Below, piece after piece: positions 622 to 5,943 of a stretch of DNA of 5,943 nucleotides. Where the stretch lies: contig JAJZDO010000969.1 in assembly GCA_021805955.1 (NCBI GenBank), positions 1 to 5,943 on the forward strand. The letters are read 5' to 3'. The translations under genes were made by a program, and so were the position numbers. The stretch's first letter is position 1; each line of letters begins with the position of its first letter. The notes under the pieces are model-generated. The model saw nothing but the letters and a program-made list of their open reading frames with translations, ran no database searches and had not been told where the DNA came from. Source of the stretch: Acidobacteriota bacterium (GTDB lineage: Bacteria; Acidobacteriota; Terriglobia; Terriglobales; Acidobacteriaceae).

Positions 622-876
622 ATGAAAGGCTGCGGCATGACGAACCCGTCAACGATAAACACCGCCAGCATTCCCCCGGAACTTTCCGCGGAGATACGCA
701 GGCTAATGCACGACCTGAGCAATGCGCTGGAAATTGTGCTGCAGGCCGGCTATCTGCTGAACACGGCAGCTACAGAGGAACCGGTGAAGGAGTGGATCGG
801 CCTGCTAGACGGCGGAGCACAGCAGGCTTTGAAGATCCATCAACAACTGCGAGAGTTCATCCGTACACACAGCTAA
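622..876 (+). CDS. Small stand-alone DHp/HisKA-like helical hairpin protein (84 aa)
   Basis: AAAGGA at 609-614 sits 7 nt before the ATG at 622, supporting this start; an alternative ATG at 637 (MTNPST) would trim five residues. The protein has a short polar lead (1-17), a long helix with the motif MHDLSNALEIVLQ (29-41), a loop around TAATEEPVK (50-56), and a second amphipathic helix (57-82). HDLSNAL resembles the H-box of histidine kinases (H-D/E-L/F-x-N), with His30 the candidate phospho-acceptor and Asn34 at the +4 position. No ATPase domain, signal peptide or membrane segment follows. By shape it could be a phosphotransfer intermediate (Spo0B-like idea) or an adaptor that pairs with a kinase. 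That function is inference; what is seen is a two-helix domain with an H-box-like motif. Codon use looks like a genuine gene, and no neighbour shares its operon. Confidence 0.6.
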   Translation: MKGCGMTNPSTINTASIPPELSAEIRRLMHDLSNALEIVLQAGYLLNTAATEEPVKEWIGLLDGGAQQALKIHQQLREFIRTHS

Positions 877-1516: not shown

Positions 1517-1942
1517 TCAGGCCAATTGGGCATCCAGGGTGATTTCGGCTGCCTTCAACAGGCGCGAGATGGGGCAATTGATCTTCGCTTCATTCGCCGC
1601 GGTCGCAAAGGCCTCTTTGCTGGCGCCCGGCACTTTCGCGCGCGTGGTCAGATGGATCTTGGTGACGGTCGGACCGCCCTGGAGCATTTCAAGCGTAACT
1701 TCCGCGGTGGTTTCCAGCGAGTCTGGTGTCAGCTTCGCATTGGTCAGTTGGCTGCTTAATGCCATGGTGAAACAGCCGGCGTGAGCGGCGGCAATCAACT
1801 CTTCCGGGTTGGTTCCTTTGCCATCTTCAAAGCGTGTATGAAAGGAGTATGCGGTATCTTTCAGCACTCCGCTCTCAGTAGAAATGGTACCTTTGCCTTC
1901 TTTCAGCGTGCCGTGCCAGACTGCGCTTGCTTTGCGTTGCAT
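1517..1942 (-). CDS. osmC: OsmC/Ohr-family peroxiredoxin (organic hydroperoxide reductase)
   Basis: The 141-residue product has the size of E. coli OsmC (143 aa) and its landmarks. They begin with an N-terminal RKASAVWHGTLKEGKG strand pair and the conserved NPEELIAAAHAGCFTMALS with peroxidatic Cys57. The second, resolving cysteine is Cys123 in NCPISRLL, and Arg37 and Glu47/48 fit the residues that position the peroxide. OsmC proteins are cytoplasmic dimers that reduce organic hydroperoxides through the Cys pair, using lipoylated protein or other thiol donors, and belong to osmotic/oxidative stress responses. The start is fixed by AAGGAG (complement of 1951-1956), 8 nt before the ATG. The spacing of both Cys residues favours OsmC over YhfA-type relatives. 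The gene is monocistronic as far as seen; no terminator is evident downstream. It lies on the same strand as the kinase gene, 144 bp beyond that gene's end, so weak read-through from it is possible. Confidence 0.93.
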   Translation of the reverse strand: MQRKASAVWHGTLKEGKGTISTESGVLKDTAYSFHTRFEDGKGTNPEELIAAAHAGCFTMALSSQLTNAKLTPDSLETTAEVTLEMLQGGPTVTKIHLTTRAKVPGASKEAFATAANEAKINCPISRLLKAAEITLDAQLA

Positions 1943-2086: not shown

Positions 2087-3553
2087 TCAACTACTCGGTT
2101 CCGGCATGTGCGGCTGAAGCGGCAACTCAAACGAGAAGACGGAACCGTGTCCGACTTGACTGGTTACGGTGATTTTGCCGCCATGCGCTTCCACGATGGC
2201 CTTGGCGATGGCCAGTCCCATTCCAGTTCCGTGGACCTTGTAGCGTTGTCCTGGGCCGCGGTAAAACTTGTCGAAGATAAAGCTCTTTTCCAGCATCCCG
2301 ATTCCAACTCCACGATCGGCCACGCTGACGACAAGCGCGTCCTTAGTCTGTTCCGCGCTGATGCAGACAGGACTGCCGGGAAGCGAGTATTTTGCGGCGT
2401 TTTCCAGCAGATGATGGAGGACTTTTTCGATCATGCGCAAGTCGAACAGGACAGGTTGCAGGTTGTTCGGTAGACGCACGCTTATGGGATGGGAGGCAAC
2501 GACTTCCTGGGCATTCTTGACCGATAGATCGACAAGTTCCTGGATCGGGTGAAGTTGCAGGTCCAATTGCACTTCATGGGCATCCAACTGCGCCATTTCG
2601 ACAGCTTCTTCAATCAAACGGTTCAGGCGTCCACTTTCCTCGTCAATGATGGCGAGCAGCTCGTTTCGTTCCTGATCTGTCAACTGCAGTTGTGAACGCA
2701 GGCTGCTGACGGCCCCCATAATGGAAGTGAGAGGCGTTCGCAGCTCATGGGTCACGGAATCCAGTAGTGCGCTTCGAATCTGTTCACTTTCTCGCGCGGC
2801 TTCTGTTTTTCCCAGCTGCTCGACGGCTCCGGCTCGTTCCACGGCGATGGCCACCATGCTGCCCAATGCCTCCAAACTCTGCCTCGACGGCCTTTTGCCA
2901 AGAATCCCCAGTGCGCCAATGGGACGCACGCCCATCATGAGCGGGATCAGAGTTATTCCCGTCTCATCGTTTCTCTGAATGTCGCGTTCGTGGGAGGCGG
3001 CGCGGAGCATCTCATCGCCGATCCGCTCACTGCTTCTACCGGAATGGTAGATGCGGCCTCGGGCAGTGACCAGCAAAGCAGCGCCCTCTATAAAGAACGT
3101 GGCCGTAATAATCTTGGGAATGGAATTCAACAGGTCGAGGATATTGTCGGTGGCCAGCAACTGCCGGCTGAAGTCGTACAGACGCTCCATTTCGATTCTT
3201 TGACTTTTGGCCTCTTTGGCTTCATCTCGGGCACGGTCGGAGAGACGGCTGGACAGGATTGCGGTGATGAGGAACGCGCCGAGAGAAACCCAGTTCTCCG
3301 GATCGGCGACAGTGAATTTTCCAATCGGAGGAAGAAAGAAAAAATTTAACGCCAGGGTGGAAAGGACTGAAGTGAAGATGGCGTTGGAAAGCCCCCATTG
3401 CCCTGCAATAAATAGAACGTATAACAATAAAGTAAGAGCAACTGTGGTGTGATTGACATGCAGCAGGGAAAAATATATCCAGACAATCACAGCGACCACG
3501 AGCACGGACGCTGCGTAACGAACCATCGGAGATGTTCTATGCGGCAACACCAT
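2087..3553 (-). CDS. Membrane sensor histidine kinase: KdpD C-terminal half as a separate protein (DUF4118-GAF-HisKA-HATPase_c)
   Basis: From the ATG at 3553 the product is 488 residues. In order it has four membrane helices of the KdpD DUF4118 type (about 12-32, 38-54, 57-74, 87-101). A basic/charged linker and coiled coil follow (about 103-130), then a GAF-like domain (about 130-245). HisKA has phospho-acceptor His269 in SVTHELRTPLTS. HATPase_c has an N-box (HLLENAAKYS, Asn385), G1 (DRGVGIG, 413-419), F-box (FDKFYR) and G2 (GTGMGLAIA, 442-450). All catalytic motifs look intact, so it should autophosphorylate and pass phosphate to KdpE at the inner membrane. It corresponds to roughly residues 395-894 of E. 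coli KdpD and lacks the N-terminal sensor, which is encoded divergently 27 bp away. The frame stays open further upstream to 4291, but that part is antisense to the sensor gene and lacks kinase-like sequence, so I start at 3553. No good ribosome site is seen. A later ATG at residue 10 is an alternative start. Confidence 0.9.
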   Translation of the reverse strand: MVLPHRTSPMVRYAASVLVVAVIVWIYFSLLHVNHTTVALTLLLYVLFIAGQWGLSNAIFTSVLSTLALNFFFLPPIGKFTVADPENWVSLGAFLITAILSSRLSDRARDEAKEAKSQRIEMERLYDFSRQLLATDNILDLLNSIPKIITATFFIEGAALLVTARGRIYHSGRSSERIGDEMLRAASHERDIQRNDETGITLIPLMMGVRPIGALGILGKRPSRQSLEALGSMVAIAVERAGAVEQLGKTEAARESEQIRSALLDSVTHELRTPLTSIMGAVSSLRSQLQLTDQERNELLAIIDEESGRLNRLIEEAVEMAQLDAHEVQLDLQLHPIQELVDLSVKNAQEVVASHPISVRLPNNLQPVLFDLRMIEKVLHHLLENAAKYSLPGSPVCISAEQTKDALVVSVADRGVGIGMLEKSFIFDKFYRGPGQRYKVHGTGMGLAIAKAIVEAHGGKITVTSQVGHGSVFSFELPLQPHMPEPSS

Positions 3554-3580
3554 TACAATTCTACTCAGGTCGCGTAAGCT
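3554..3580. promoter_or_regulatory. 27-bp divergent promoter gap between the two halves of KdpD
   Basis: The gap holds TACAAT on the plus strand (3554-3559) and TAGAAT on the minus strand (complement of 3558-3563), each one mismatch from the -10 consensus and overlapping by two bases. Plus-strand transcription would begin about 3566, leaving a leader of some 15 nt. Minus-strand transcription would begin at or beside the kinase ATG, so that mRNA may be leaderless. No clear -35 is seen on either side; any would lie inside the opposing gene. A single CTTACG (complement of 3573-3578) shares the core of the repeats beyond kdpE, but one copy is weak evidence of autoregulation. Confidence 0.35.
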
Positions 3581-4729
3581 ATGAGCCCACAAACCGGAAA
3601 CATAAAGCCGATCAAAACGCCTGAGCAGTGGCTGGAAACAGCCGCTCCGGAAAAGACGGCGGGGATTTTCAAGGTCTTTCTGGGCTATGCCCCTGGCGTT
3701 GGCAAAACGTTCAACATGCTGAGCGAAGCCATCCGGCGCAGTAAACGCGGCGAAGATGTGGTAATCGGATTCGTTGAGACACATCAACGTCCTCGCGTGA
3801 TCGAGTTGGCCAGCCAGATGGAGGCGGTTCCGACTCGGCGTGTCGAATATAAGGGCACATTTTTTGAAGAGCTTGATCTGGACGCCGTGCTGTCTAGAAA
3901 GCCGACAGTAGTGGTAATCGATGAACTGGCGCACACGAACATTCCAGGAAGCAAGCACGAAAAACGCTATGAGGATGTGCTGGAGCTGCTGCAGAACCGC
4001 ATCGATGTTCTTTCCGCGCTGAACGTACAGCACGTCGAAAGCGTGGCTCCCACAGTGCAGAGCATTACGGGCATTACCGTGCGTGAAACGGTGCCGGACT
4101 GGGTGCTGGACCGGGCCGACGAAGTGGTTTTGGTCGACGTCACTCCCGAAGCGTTGCAAACCCGGATGCGCCGCGGGGACATTTATCCAGCCGAACGCAT
4201 TGAGCGGTCTCTGGCCAATTTCTTCCGCCGGGGAAACCTCCTCGCGCTGCGCGAGTTGGCGCTGAAGCGCGTCACCCATGCTGTCGATCAAAATTTAGAC
4301 GCCTACCTGCGCCGCAAGCAGCTCGGCCAGGATTGGATGGTACAGGAGCGAGTGGCGGTGTGCGTCAGTTCGAATCCGGCCTCGCAGCAGCTGATTGCGC
4401 GCGGCGCGCGCATGGCCGAAGGCATGGACGCCGAATTTTATATTTTGCATGTAGACCTGCCAGACGACGCAAGTGAAGAGAAGAGCCGGAACCTGGCCGC
4501 CAATCTGCGCTTTGCGGAAAACCTTTCGGCCAGGATTTTTCGTTTGCAGGGCGGGAAGGTTGCCACCACTCTAGGGGAGTTTGTGAGGGAACACCGCATC
4601 ACGCAGATCATCCTGGGCCGGTCGGCGGTTCGCGGCTGGGGAAACTATCGCTACTTCATGGCAATTCAGCGGCTGCTTCGTGAAGCGCCCCATGTGGATG
4701 TCCATATTGTGACGCAAGAGCAGCATTGA
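3581..4729 (+). CDS. kdpD: KdpD N-terminal sensor protein (KdpD domain plus universal stress protein domain), lacking the kinase
   Basis: The 382-residue product matches the cytoplasmic N-terminal half of KdpD. The KdpD domain (about 26-235) carries Walker A GYAPGVGKT (35-43) and Walker B VVVIDELAHTN (110-120). It also has the family blocks KRYEDVLELL and LNVQHVES (147-154), and TVRETVPDWVLDRADEV. A USP-like domain (about 255-378) follows. The protein ends at VTQEQH with no membrane helix, HisKA or ATPase, whereas E. coli KdpD is 894 aa. In the family this half senses intracellular K+/ATP and adjusts kinase versus phosphatase activity. Here it must act in trans, presumably on the divergently encoded membrane kinase. 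Short KdpD homologues are known in cyanobacteria such as Anabaena. The gene ends 6 bp before kdpE, so the two are probably co-transcribed. The ribosome site is weak (CAGG, 3566-3569). The clean end at the natural domain border argues against a recent truncation. Confidence 0.93.
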   Translation: MSPQTGNIKPIKTPEQWLETAAPEKTAGIFKVFLGYAPGVGKTFNMLSEAIRRSKRGEDVVIGFVETHQRPRVIELASQMEAVPTRRVEYKGTFFEELDLDAVLSRKPTVVVIDELAHTNIPGSKHEKRYEDVLELLQNRIDVLSALNVQHVESVAPTVQSITGITVRETVPDWVLDRADEVVLVDVTPEALQTRMRRGDIYPAERIERSLANFFRRGNLLALRELALKRVTHAVDQNLDAYLRRKQLGQDWMVQERVAVCVSSNPASQQLIARGARMAEGMDAEFYILHVDLPDDASEEKSRNLAANLRFAENLSARIFRLQGGKVATTLGEFVREHRITQIILGRSAVRGWGNYRYFMAIQRLLREAPHVDVHIVTQEQH

Positions 4730-4735
4730 GCGGAC

Positions 4736-5482
4736 ATGACGGATCAAGCAACAACACCGCGCGATAGTACTGACCCAGCGAAAATCCTGATCGTCGATGA
4801 CGAGCCGCAAATTACCCGCGTCGTCTCCATGGCATGTACCGCGCAGGGATACCAGGTTCGATCCGCGGCGGACGGAGAATCCGCGCTGGCCATATTGATC
4901 GATTGGCCAGCCGAGCTGATCATCACAGATCTGGCCATGCCCAAGCTGGACGGCGTGGAACTCTGCCGCGCCATACGAAAGCAATCCAATGTTCCCATCC
5001 TGGTGTTGTCTGTGCGCAACCAGGAGAAGATGAAGGTCGAGGCACTGGACGCCGGAGCCGACGACTATGTGACCAAGCCGTTCCAGATCAATGAGCTTCT
5101 GGCTAGAATTCGCGCGGTCCTGCGGCGATCCAGCCACACAGCCGCGAAAGACAAGAATGCGGAAGCGACGCTGGGGGATTTCCGTATCGACCCAGCTTCG
5201 CGGCAGGTTTTTGTACGAGGGGCAGAAGTCCATCTGACACCGAAGGAATTTGATCTGCTCCATGCCATGTCGCGCTACCCTGATCGGGTCGTCACCCGGC
5301 GCACGCTGATGGTTGCGGTCTGGGGCGGTTACAACATAGACCAGCCGGAATCGCTGCGCGTCCTGATTGGGCAGCTCCGCCGGAAGATTGAACCGGGCGA
5401 AAAGCCGCACTACATCCTGACCGAACCCTGGGTTGGATACCGCTTTGTTCCGGAAGGGGTCCAGGCCGCCTCGTCCTTATAA
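4736..5482 (+). CDS. kdpE: KdpE, OmpR-family response regulator of potassium transport
   Basis: The 248-residue product has a receiver domain (about 16-132) with acidic pair Asp21-Asp22 in ILIVDDEP, phospho-acceptor Asp65 in LIITDLAMPKLDG, switch residue Ser92, and Lys114 in DDYVTKPF. A linker follows, then an OmpR/PhoB winged-helix domain (about 145-238) with HLTPKEFDLL, the recognition-helix region ESLRVLIGQLRRKIE, and the hairpin VGYRFVPE. RVLIGQLRRKIEP and TEPWVGYRF are typical of KdpE among OmpR proteins. It is expected to be phosphorylated by the KdpD-type kinase and to activate kdp transport genes. It begins 6 bp after the sensor gene ends and has no strong ribosome site of its own, which suggests translational coupling. 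A 15-residue polar N-terminal extension precedes the receiver. Just beyond its stop lie phased repeats that suit its own binding mode. Confidence 0.95.
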   Translation: MTDQATTPRDSTDPAKILIVDDEPQITRVVSMACTAQGYQVRSAADGESALAILIDWPAELIITDLAMPKLDGVELCRAIRKQSNVPILVLSVRNQEKMKVEALDAGADDYVTKPFQINELLARIRAVLRRSSHTAAKDKNAEATLGDFRIDPASRQVFVRGAEVHLTPKEFDLLHAMSRYPDRVVTRRTLMVAVWGGYNIDQPESLRVLIGQLRRKIEPGEKPHYILTEPWVGYRFVPEGVQAASSL

Positions 5483-5513
5483 CTTTCTTACGATCTTCTT
5501 ACGCACTTTTTAC
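5474..5513 (+). promoter_or_regulatory. Candidate KdpE operator: heptamers repeated every 11 bp
   Basis: TTCTTAC occurs at 5485-5491 and 5496-5502 and TTTTTAC at 5507-5513, each starting exactly 11 bp after the last. A degenerate fourth copy, TCCTTAT (5474-5480), is in the same phase and overlaps the end of kdpE. OmpR/PhoB-family regulators bind head-to-tail as dimers on direct repeats of about 11 bp. The E. coli KdpE site, as I recall it, has TTTATAC and TTTACAC 11 bp apart, close to TTTTTAC here. Four phased copies would seat two dimers. The array ends 58 bp before the ATG at 5572, right for an activator site next to a -35 region; a weak TAATCC (5530-5535) could be the -10. The regulator assignment is inference from family, spacing and adjacency. 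Confidence 0.6.
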
Positions 5514-5571
5514 TTCGGGCCTTGTGAACTAATCCTAGGTCGGAAGAAGCGTCCGATCTGGGCAGGCAATT

Positions 5572-5943
5572 ATGTTGGCGACTATCTTAACTGGAATTAG
5601 CTGCATGACGGCGATAGGTTTTCTAATATTTTGTTACCTGGGCTTTGCTAGTACCCAGGCTGAGGAACGCTCGAGAAGAAAGAACGTGAATGTGTTTCCG
5701 CTAGATCGCAACAAAAACACCTTGCCTGGGAGTAAAAGGGCTCTATTGGCGCTCGTTGCCCTGAGTATATTCCCTGGCCCACCGATGCGTGCGCAAATTA
5801 GTGGACAGTCCGCTGCGGACGCAAATGCCAAACAAACTGGCTCGGCCGCGCCCGAAGCAGTCCCCGCTGAAACTGTATCGACAGCTCCACTTCCGGCGCC
5901 AGCAATGGTTGGCCCCCTCAGTACCGCGTCTCCCAGAACGTTT
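5572..5943 (+). CDS. Start of an exported protein, porin-precursor-like, with a KdpF-like N-terminal helix; runs off the window
   Basis: From the ATG at 5572 the frame is open for 124 codons to the right edge with no stop. Residues 3-26 (ATILTGISCMTAIGFLIFCY and on) form one membrane helix similar in size and position to the KdpF peptide, followed by a charged stretch (EERSRRKNVN, 31-40). A second hydrophobic run, KRALLALVALSIFPGPP (55-71), ends at MRAQ and looks like a signal peptide with cleavage near Ala74. After it comes an Ala/Pro/Ser/Thr-rich linker and PAPAMVGPLSTASPRTF, a style I associate with Gram-negative outer-membrane beta-barrel porin precursors; the barrel would lie beyond the window. 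The gene is the first one downstream of the phased KdpE-like repeats, so it is probably part of the Kdp regulon. The ribosome site is weak (GGGCAGG, 5560-5566). Internal TTG codons (5722, 5746) could start a shorter form without the first helix. Confidence 0.55.
   Translation, partial: MLATILTGISCMTAIGFLIFCYLGFASTQAEERSRRKNVNVFPLDRNKNTLPGSKRALLALVALSIFPGPPMRAQISGQSAADANAKQTGSAAPEAVPAETVSTAPLPAPAMVGPLSTASPRTF

Follow-up and report, generated by a model that had tools for sequence, protein, structure and literature searches.

The stretch analyzed here, 5,943 nt of contig JAJZDO010000969.1 (assembly GCA_021805955.1; Acidobacteriota bacterium, family Acidobacteriaceae), which we call the window, comes from a soil acidobacterium and encodes KdpD, a potassium regulator, as two separate proteins whose genes lie head to head on opposite strands. 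The N-terminal half (KdpD/Usp, the sensor half of an initial annotation of the sequence; 3581..4729, plus strand; 382 amino acids [aa]; PF02702 at 301 bits) is a predicted atypical serine kinase (ASK) and is followed after 6 bp, on the same strand, by the response regulator gene kdpE (4736..5482; Pfam Response_reg and Trans_reg_C). The C-terminal, kinase half (2087..3553, minus strand; 488 aa) holds, by Pfam, the DUF4118 membrane region, HisKA, and HATPase_c. The explanation that we favor, with a probability of roughly two in three, is a two-chain KdpD in which the membrane kinase half would sense K+ and phosphorylate KdpE; phosphorylated KdpE would then bind a repeat box after kdpE and turn on a porin-kdpABC operon. 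The soluble KdpD/Usp half would be a separate serine kinase that phosphorylates KdpB at high K+ and so shuts the pump, basal expression of the regulators would not depend on KdpE and would start from divergent promoters in and around the tiny gap between the two genes, and the kinase half would be translated from a leaderless mRNA.

Two intact halves in a conserved divergent layout

The domain content of each half agrees with the proposal of the initial annotation that KdpD is present in two pieces separated at the domain border, and the open reading frames, strands, lengths, and back-to-back arrangement are as it described; its pairing of the sensor half with kdpE fits the short same-strand spacing given above. 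The Usp domain of the sensor half is a partial Pfam match (25 bits; cut-off, 24). Family-level matches fall below their cut-offs: the sensor half reaches 392.4 bits against NCBIfam NF038185 (KdpD_non_kinase; cut-off, 550), the two halves reach 328.6 and 201 bits against the full-length KdpD equivalog PRK10490 (cut-off, 1123), and the KdpE equivalog, among the best NCBIfam matches of kdpE, scores 183 bits (cut-off, 325). Several of the best protein matches are from named Acidobacteriaceae, and the kinase of the nearest metagenome-assembled genome (MAG WH2.bin123; locus L001) is 99% identical to that of the window. The 488-aa kinase reading from ATG 3553 sits inside a longer, 734-aa open frame, and either ATG 3553 or GTG 3550 may be its start.

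Both halves look intact, as had been claimed. Kinase residues His269 and Asn385 and those of the G box were invariant across 14 aligned rows, and the ratios of nonsynonymous to synonymous substitution rates (dN/dS) against three relatives were 0.048 to 0.080 for the kinase and 0.033 to 0.049 for the sensor half; in a fourth pair (L004), the sensor half gave 0.057 and the kinase dS was unusable. These low ratios show that both halves are under purifying selection. A structure model of the kinase has a DHp-CA fold, and the structure matches listed for it were mainly DHp-CA structures. The initial annotation had also placed a GAF-like region in this protein: Pfam detected no GAF domain in the window kinase, and in the model, whose mean predicted local distance difference test score (pLDDT) is a modest 71, the segment linking the membrane part to the DHp helices has alpha/beta structure, which leaves a GAF-like region plausible. 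The model of the sensor half was poor (mean pLDDT, 61) and was left out of the evidence.

Conservation of the layout was examined with a kinase-profile scan of genome contigs, from which the best 80 loci were used; together with 100 further stretches from relatives, these gave 180 loci, which were annotated with the window by profile search. The layout is conserved: the divergent pair of KdpD/Usp and kinase (type II) recurred in at least 56 distinct loci, window included. This count takes in L001, a near copy of the window, as well as L026, where the gap exceeds 1 kb, and L073, where the kinase frame is broken. On one side, the usual type II order is KdpD/Usp-kdpE-(porin)-kdpABC. A 54-locus set used below omits L073, L026, and L154 and L160 (copies of L009 and L001) and still has L001 beside the window, as well as L152 from the same MAG as L001. 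The latter (G001:C56) is a second, diverged type II locus whose kinase is 79% identical to that of the window; it may be a paralogue or come from a mixed strain.

Other layouts within the phylum include fused KdpD; type III, in which kinase, kdpE, kdpABC, and KdpD/Usp share one orientation in that order and KdpD/Usp is sometimes present as a tandem pair of genes; and type IV, in which the kinase stands head to head with kdpE and KdpD/Usp lies elsewhere. In eight of nine listed loci (L087, L121, L139, L144, L145, L149, L150, and L155, not L153), the KdpD/Usp gene lies away from kdp and directly follows a frame reading as a membrane histidine kinase of another type (truncated at the contig end in L155); in L121, L145, and L150, where this kinase was checked, it contains HAMP and PAS domains. 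Of 297 Acidobacteriota genomes drawn evenly, 105 passed the cut-off for a KdpD domain, 63 of them only in frames of fewer than 600 codons and 42 with a frame of at least 850 codons; 19 of these 42 were inspected (20 stretches), two (G081 and G221) proving to be sensor only, and the other 23 were classed by frame length alone. Type II was found in 25 of 62 stretches around short KdpD frames. Among the 45 genomes reached through kinase-scan loci, 43 had a KdpD domain, none in a frame longer than 568 codons; these genomes were chosen by their kinase, and long KdpD frames are common elsewhere in the phylum. No KdpD domain was detected in the remaining two of the 45, G012 and G041.

That the window holds a decaying or assembly-broken full-length kdpD is a vanishingly improbable explanation. 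A few loci do have broken frames (the kinase in L073, the sensor half in L141, and the regulator in L103), but the active sites are intact, dN/dS is low, the 43 genomes with a KdpD domain have it in short frames, and the number of distinct divergent loci together with the low dN/dS makes a pseudogene or an assembly break very unlikely. No full-length KdpD was found in the nearest MAG (G001), where two short KdpD frames are present. The three frames named above, and likewise kdpA in L016, are broken in two by a frameshift, a stop, or an assembly error.

Start-codon geometry and a box after kdpE

The gap between the divergent start codons spans 27 bp in the window (3554..3580), and the start codons, picked automatically as those closest to the profile start, were at most 64 bp apart in 48 of the 54 type II loci. 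Start codons so close leave no room for promoters that overlap neither the partner gene nor each other. It had been suggested that a single kinase was divided so that separate divergent promoters could control the amounts of sensor and kinase independently. The placement of the genes on opposite strands would allow this, and in 6 of the 54 loci the gap exceeds 64 bp and leaves room for separate promoters, but the tight spacing in the other 48 makes independent levels improbable, as do the paired hexamers described next.

In 51 of 54 loci, a -10-like hexamer of the form TANNNT precedes an in-frame kinase start by 6 to 7 nt, where 4.0 were expected by shuffling; the start was selected among all in-frame candidates, and the shuffles allow for this selection. 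At the kdpE starts of type II loci, used as a control, the same hexamer occurred in 0 of 50; controls at kdpA, kdpB, and kdpC were small (5, 10, and 5 starts). In the window, the hexamer is TAGAAT (3558..3563, minus strand), upstream of the kinase start at a distance of 4 nt from ATG 3553 and 7 nt from GTG 3550. Since a hexamer 6 to 7 nt before the start codon occupies the position of a -10 element whose transcription start site is that codon, this arrangement suggests that the kinase mRNA is leaderless. KdpD/Usp starts carried the strict hexamer in 12 of 54 loci (2.6 expected) and a relaxed form, [TG]ANNNT at 6 to 8 nt, in 34 of 54. Strict kinase-side and relaxed sensor-side hexamers occurred together in 33 loci, and in 13 of these, three of them with a TTG sensor start and the window not among them, the starts were exactly 18 bp apart. 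According to the cited accounts, this is the commonest spacing of start sites at bidirectional promoters, the usual distance at one shared -10 element (PMC10268837, PMC12825309). The 13 relatives resemble such promoters in the spacing of their presumed start sites and differ from them in that these sites would coincide with the start codons. For the relatives, although not for the window, the geometry suggests two-way leaderless transcription. By titles and abstracts, the literature found on leaderless bidirectional promoters with two-component systems held no kdp case.

Several results weigh against this part of our explanation. The sensor start of the window has no -10-like hexamer at 6 to 8 nt; with a kinase-side hexamer only, the window gives no support for a shared promoter. 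Bidirectional promoters have divergent start sites 7 to 25 bp apart with overlapping -10 elements; in the window, 27 bp separate the start codons. A sigma-70 pattern scan of window positions 3400 to 3700 found no promoter. Fused kdpD starts carried the strict hexamer in 23 of 42 cases (1.1 expected; 12 from Bradyrhizobium and 8 acidobacterial), so the hexamer is not peculiar to the split, and only 3 of 10 type IV kinase starts had it. The 12 Bradyrhizobium genes are full-length kdpD genes with TATATT or TATAAT 6 nt before the ATG (L054, L057, L059-L062, L066, L068, L070, L072, L074, and L076), as if they were under an internal leaderless promoter.

The second conserved element is a box of four 11-bp direct repeats (matrix consensus TCTTTACGNAC) at 5474..5517 on the plus strand, the first repeat of which overlaps the kdpE stop codon. 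The E. coli KdpE half-sites are TTTATA and TTTACA with a 5-bp spacer (PMC3264566); the window repeats resemble the half-site and share the 11-bp period, which makes the box a candidate KdpE operator. The box was scored in 49 type II loci (L001 was omitted, and L006, L012, L065, and L141 gave no kdpE region). The matrix score exceeded 20 in 35 of these, in 32 of them no more than 60 nt past the kdpE stop; the 95th percentile of random windows was 0.44, and 1.5% of 540 random 700-nt windows scored above 15. Where kdpA or kdpB lies downstream of kdpE, 33 of 36 loci have a box above 10; where at least 5 kb of downstream sequence contains no pump gene, 1 of 10 has one; the remaining three loci, the window among them, have too little downstream sequence. 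The box thus goes with the pump. Between the halves, no KdpE-type box was found (median score, -9.9, and maximum, 4.7, compared with a random median of -12.7 and 99th percentile of 3.95). A scan of about 700 nt upstream of kdpA gave scores above 15 in 14 of 39 type II loci; that this is less often than after kdpE is partly due to the porin gene that lies between.

This pattern has exceptions, which also count against our explanation. Between the halves, 6 of 53 loci scored above the random 95th percentile and one (L021) above the 99th; L015, L096, and L103 have a downstream pump gene and no box, and L110 has a box without a pump gene. The matrix was refined on the same loci that it scores, and only 9 of 49 loci exceeded the 99th percentile of random windows; these windows were taken from the loci themselves, so that real boxes may be among them.

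KdpD/Usp as a predicted separate kinase and the descent of the halves

The initial annotation held that the sensor must act in trans on the kinase. The so-called sensor half has been shown to be an atypical serine kinase, which shuts down KdpB, a subunit of the pump (PMC11018627); with a substrate of its own, it need not act on the kinase half. Residues agree with this role: the G, K, and T of the Walker A motif G-x5-GKT, the Walker B D/E, and the equivalent of R190 were kept in 55 of 55 aligned type II sensors, window included; the position of E. coli W39, the partner of R190 in the adenine pair, is F in the window and F or Y in 53 and H in 2 of the 55. The TGES target motif was present in 108 of 108 KdpB proteins from all loci; the window itself holds no KdpB. 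Both the serine kinase activity of the KdpD/Usp half and its action on KdpB are predictions from conserved residues.

E110 is the Walker B glutamate essential in E. coli KdpD. In 12 loci with tandem KdpD/Usp genes (L029, L030, L044, L046, L047, L098, L101, L107, L142, L157, L158, and L159), the weaker-scoring copy has G at this position in 10, P in 1, and E in 1, and is probably an inactive serine kinase beside an active one. The tandem sensors of L106, L111, and L156 were removed by a length filter before the residue alignment.

Of 62 genomes, 17 had a diadenylate cyclase domain, and in 45 none was detected; the cyclase-bearing genomes form one clade on the kinase tree, with no tested genome lacking the cyclase inside it, and 35 of 51 tested type II sensor rows came from genomes without a detected cyclase. 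None was found in the nearest MAGs (G001-G005 and G341; 1.9 to 3.7 Mb, possibly incomplete) or in G139, G262, G270, G278, and G286 (contigs of 2.9 to 6.4 Mb). Where no cyclase is detectable, the published control by cyclic di-AMP (c-di-AMP) seems unavailable, which applies to most of the genomes searched. Many type II organisms thus appear to have a free kinase with neither K+-sensing domains nor c-di-AMP, and control in trans by the kinase half is one answer to what governs it.

Such control is central to a rival explanation that we consider possible but rather unlikely: the halves would reassemble, the soluble half docking on the kinase half, and membrane K+ sensing would control both activities in trans, as in fused KdpD. 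The apparent lack of the published c-di-AMP input in the 45 genomes speaks for it, as do the strict gene neighborhood and the correlated evolution of the halves (r = 0.877 for sensor and kinase distances over 54 pairs; 0 of 999 permutations as high), but common descent also gives correlated distances. The MAG G012 (locus L013), moreover, keeps the kinase and kdpE without a detected PF02702 domain, which tells against docking and also against a sensor that must act in trans. As read from the L013 sequence, only about the first dozen KdpD/Usp codons seem to be left between the kinase and kdpE. Also against docking, in the four type IV genomes in which the distant gene was examined (G022, G026, G037, and G039), the DUF4118 kinase stands head to head with kdpE, and the distant KdpD/Usp gene lies behind another histidine-kinase-like frame (checked with Pfam in G026 and G039). 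A bolder combination, which we consider unlikely, is that in those acidobacteria of this group that lack c-di-AMP the free serine kinase would get its K+ signal in trans from the kinase half, and one symmetric leaderless bidirectional promoter would keep the two in step.

The reading of the pair as one kinase cut in two stays unproven, since the joining of separate chains by gene fusion has been proposed for KdpD generally (PMC11018627) and a fused protein falls among the split ones. Type II KdpD/Usp proteins formed one clade (55 rows; FastTree support, 100), and fused proteins need two changes on the KdpD/Usp tree. The fused KdpD of L175 (1153-3876 of that locus; 908 aa) fell among split proteins in both the sensor and the kinase trees, and holding all fused rows together was rejected for the kinase half by an approximately unbiased test (p-AU, 1.3e-6; 49 of 130 kinase rows, quick tree, kinase half only). 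The neighbor of L175, L093, carries the genes for KdpD/Usp, kinase, and KdpE consecutively and in the same orientation. L175 is thus a probable re-fusion within the split group; the rooting of the trees is unsettled, and we make no claim about whether the ancestral state was split or fused.

Relation to known systems and wider meaning

The split itself is not new, and the initial annotation was right that such proteins are known. A two-chain KdpD, consisting of a KdpD/Usp serine kinase and a TM/GAF/DHpCA histidine kinase, has been described, with Acidobacteriota named as a main home (Silberberg et al. 2024, PMC11018627), the only report of an acidobacterial split KdpD in the literature found. 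The window shares with that form the cut, the domain content (GAF unconfirmed here), and the phylum; it differs in that c-di-AMP control appears unavailable in most genomes searched here. In Deinococcus radiodurans, Anabaena, and Alicyclobacillus, the ASK chain is encoded downstream of the pump (PMC11018627), whereas here its gene lies upstream of the pump, next to kdpE, and diverges from the kinase gene. The abstract, passages, section 8, and first part of section 9 of that paper give no gene layout for Acidobacteriota. The D. radiodurans kdp locus (PMC5716572) is similar in having KdpD-N and the sensor kinase as separate genes in opposite orientations with a short divergent gap, 38 bp there. 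In that species, however, KdpD-N belongs to the pump operon, and the divergent gap is bound by the regulator, whose gene lies with that of the kinase. Here, KdpD-N is instead encoded with the regulator, the kinase gene is on its own, and the KdpE-type box follows kdpE. E. coli KdpD/KdpE has the same KdpD, Usp, DUF4118, HisKA, and HATPase_c parts and the same ASK and kinase residues, but KdpD is one polypeptide there and all genes run in one direction. The layout, the start-codon geometry, the position of the box, and the c-di-AMP gap look new for the phylum, within the literature found and the parts of these sources cited.

Beyond the regulators, the window contains the start of a BBP2-type porin gene (5572..5943, plus strand), cut at the window end and followed in relatives such as L003 and L004 by kdpA, kdpB, and kdpC, and an OsmC-type gene (1517..1942, minus strand), which shares the strand of the kinase and lies downstream of it. 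Judged by reading, an OsmC-like frame also follows the kinase in L002 and is found about 3 kb past it in L003. An 84-aa frame at 622-876 (plus strand) without a Pfam match has an HDLSN motif reminiscent of the phospho-acceptor helix of histidine kinases. No Rfam families or tRNAs were found in the window.

A single phylum thus holds fused KdpD, several split layouts, a probable re-fusion, and a clade with diadenylate cyclase beside relatives without a detectable one. This makes two questions testable by comparison: what the input is of a free KdpD/Usp serine kinase to which both K+-sensing domains and c-di-AMP seem unavailable, and whether the joining of separate kinases gave rise to fused KdpD. 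If the unlikely combination of control in trans and a shared leaderless promoter were true, the two halves would be a tandem kinase joined by DNA geometry rather than by a peptide bond, with the direction taken by RNA polymerase setting their ratio.

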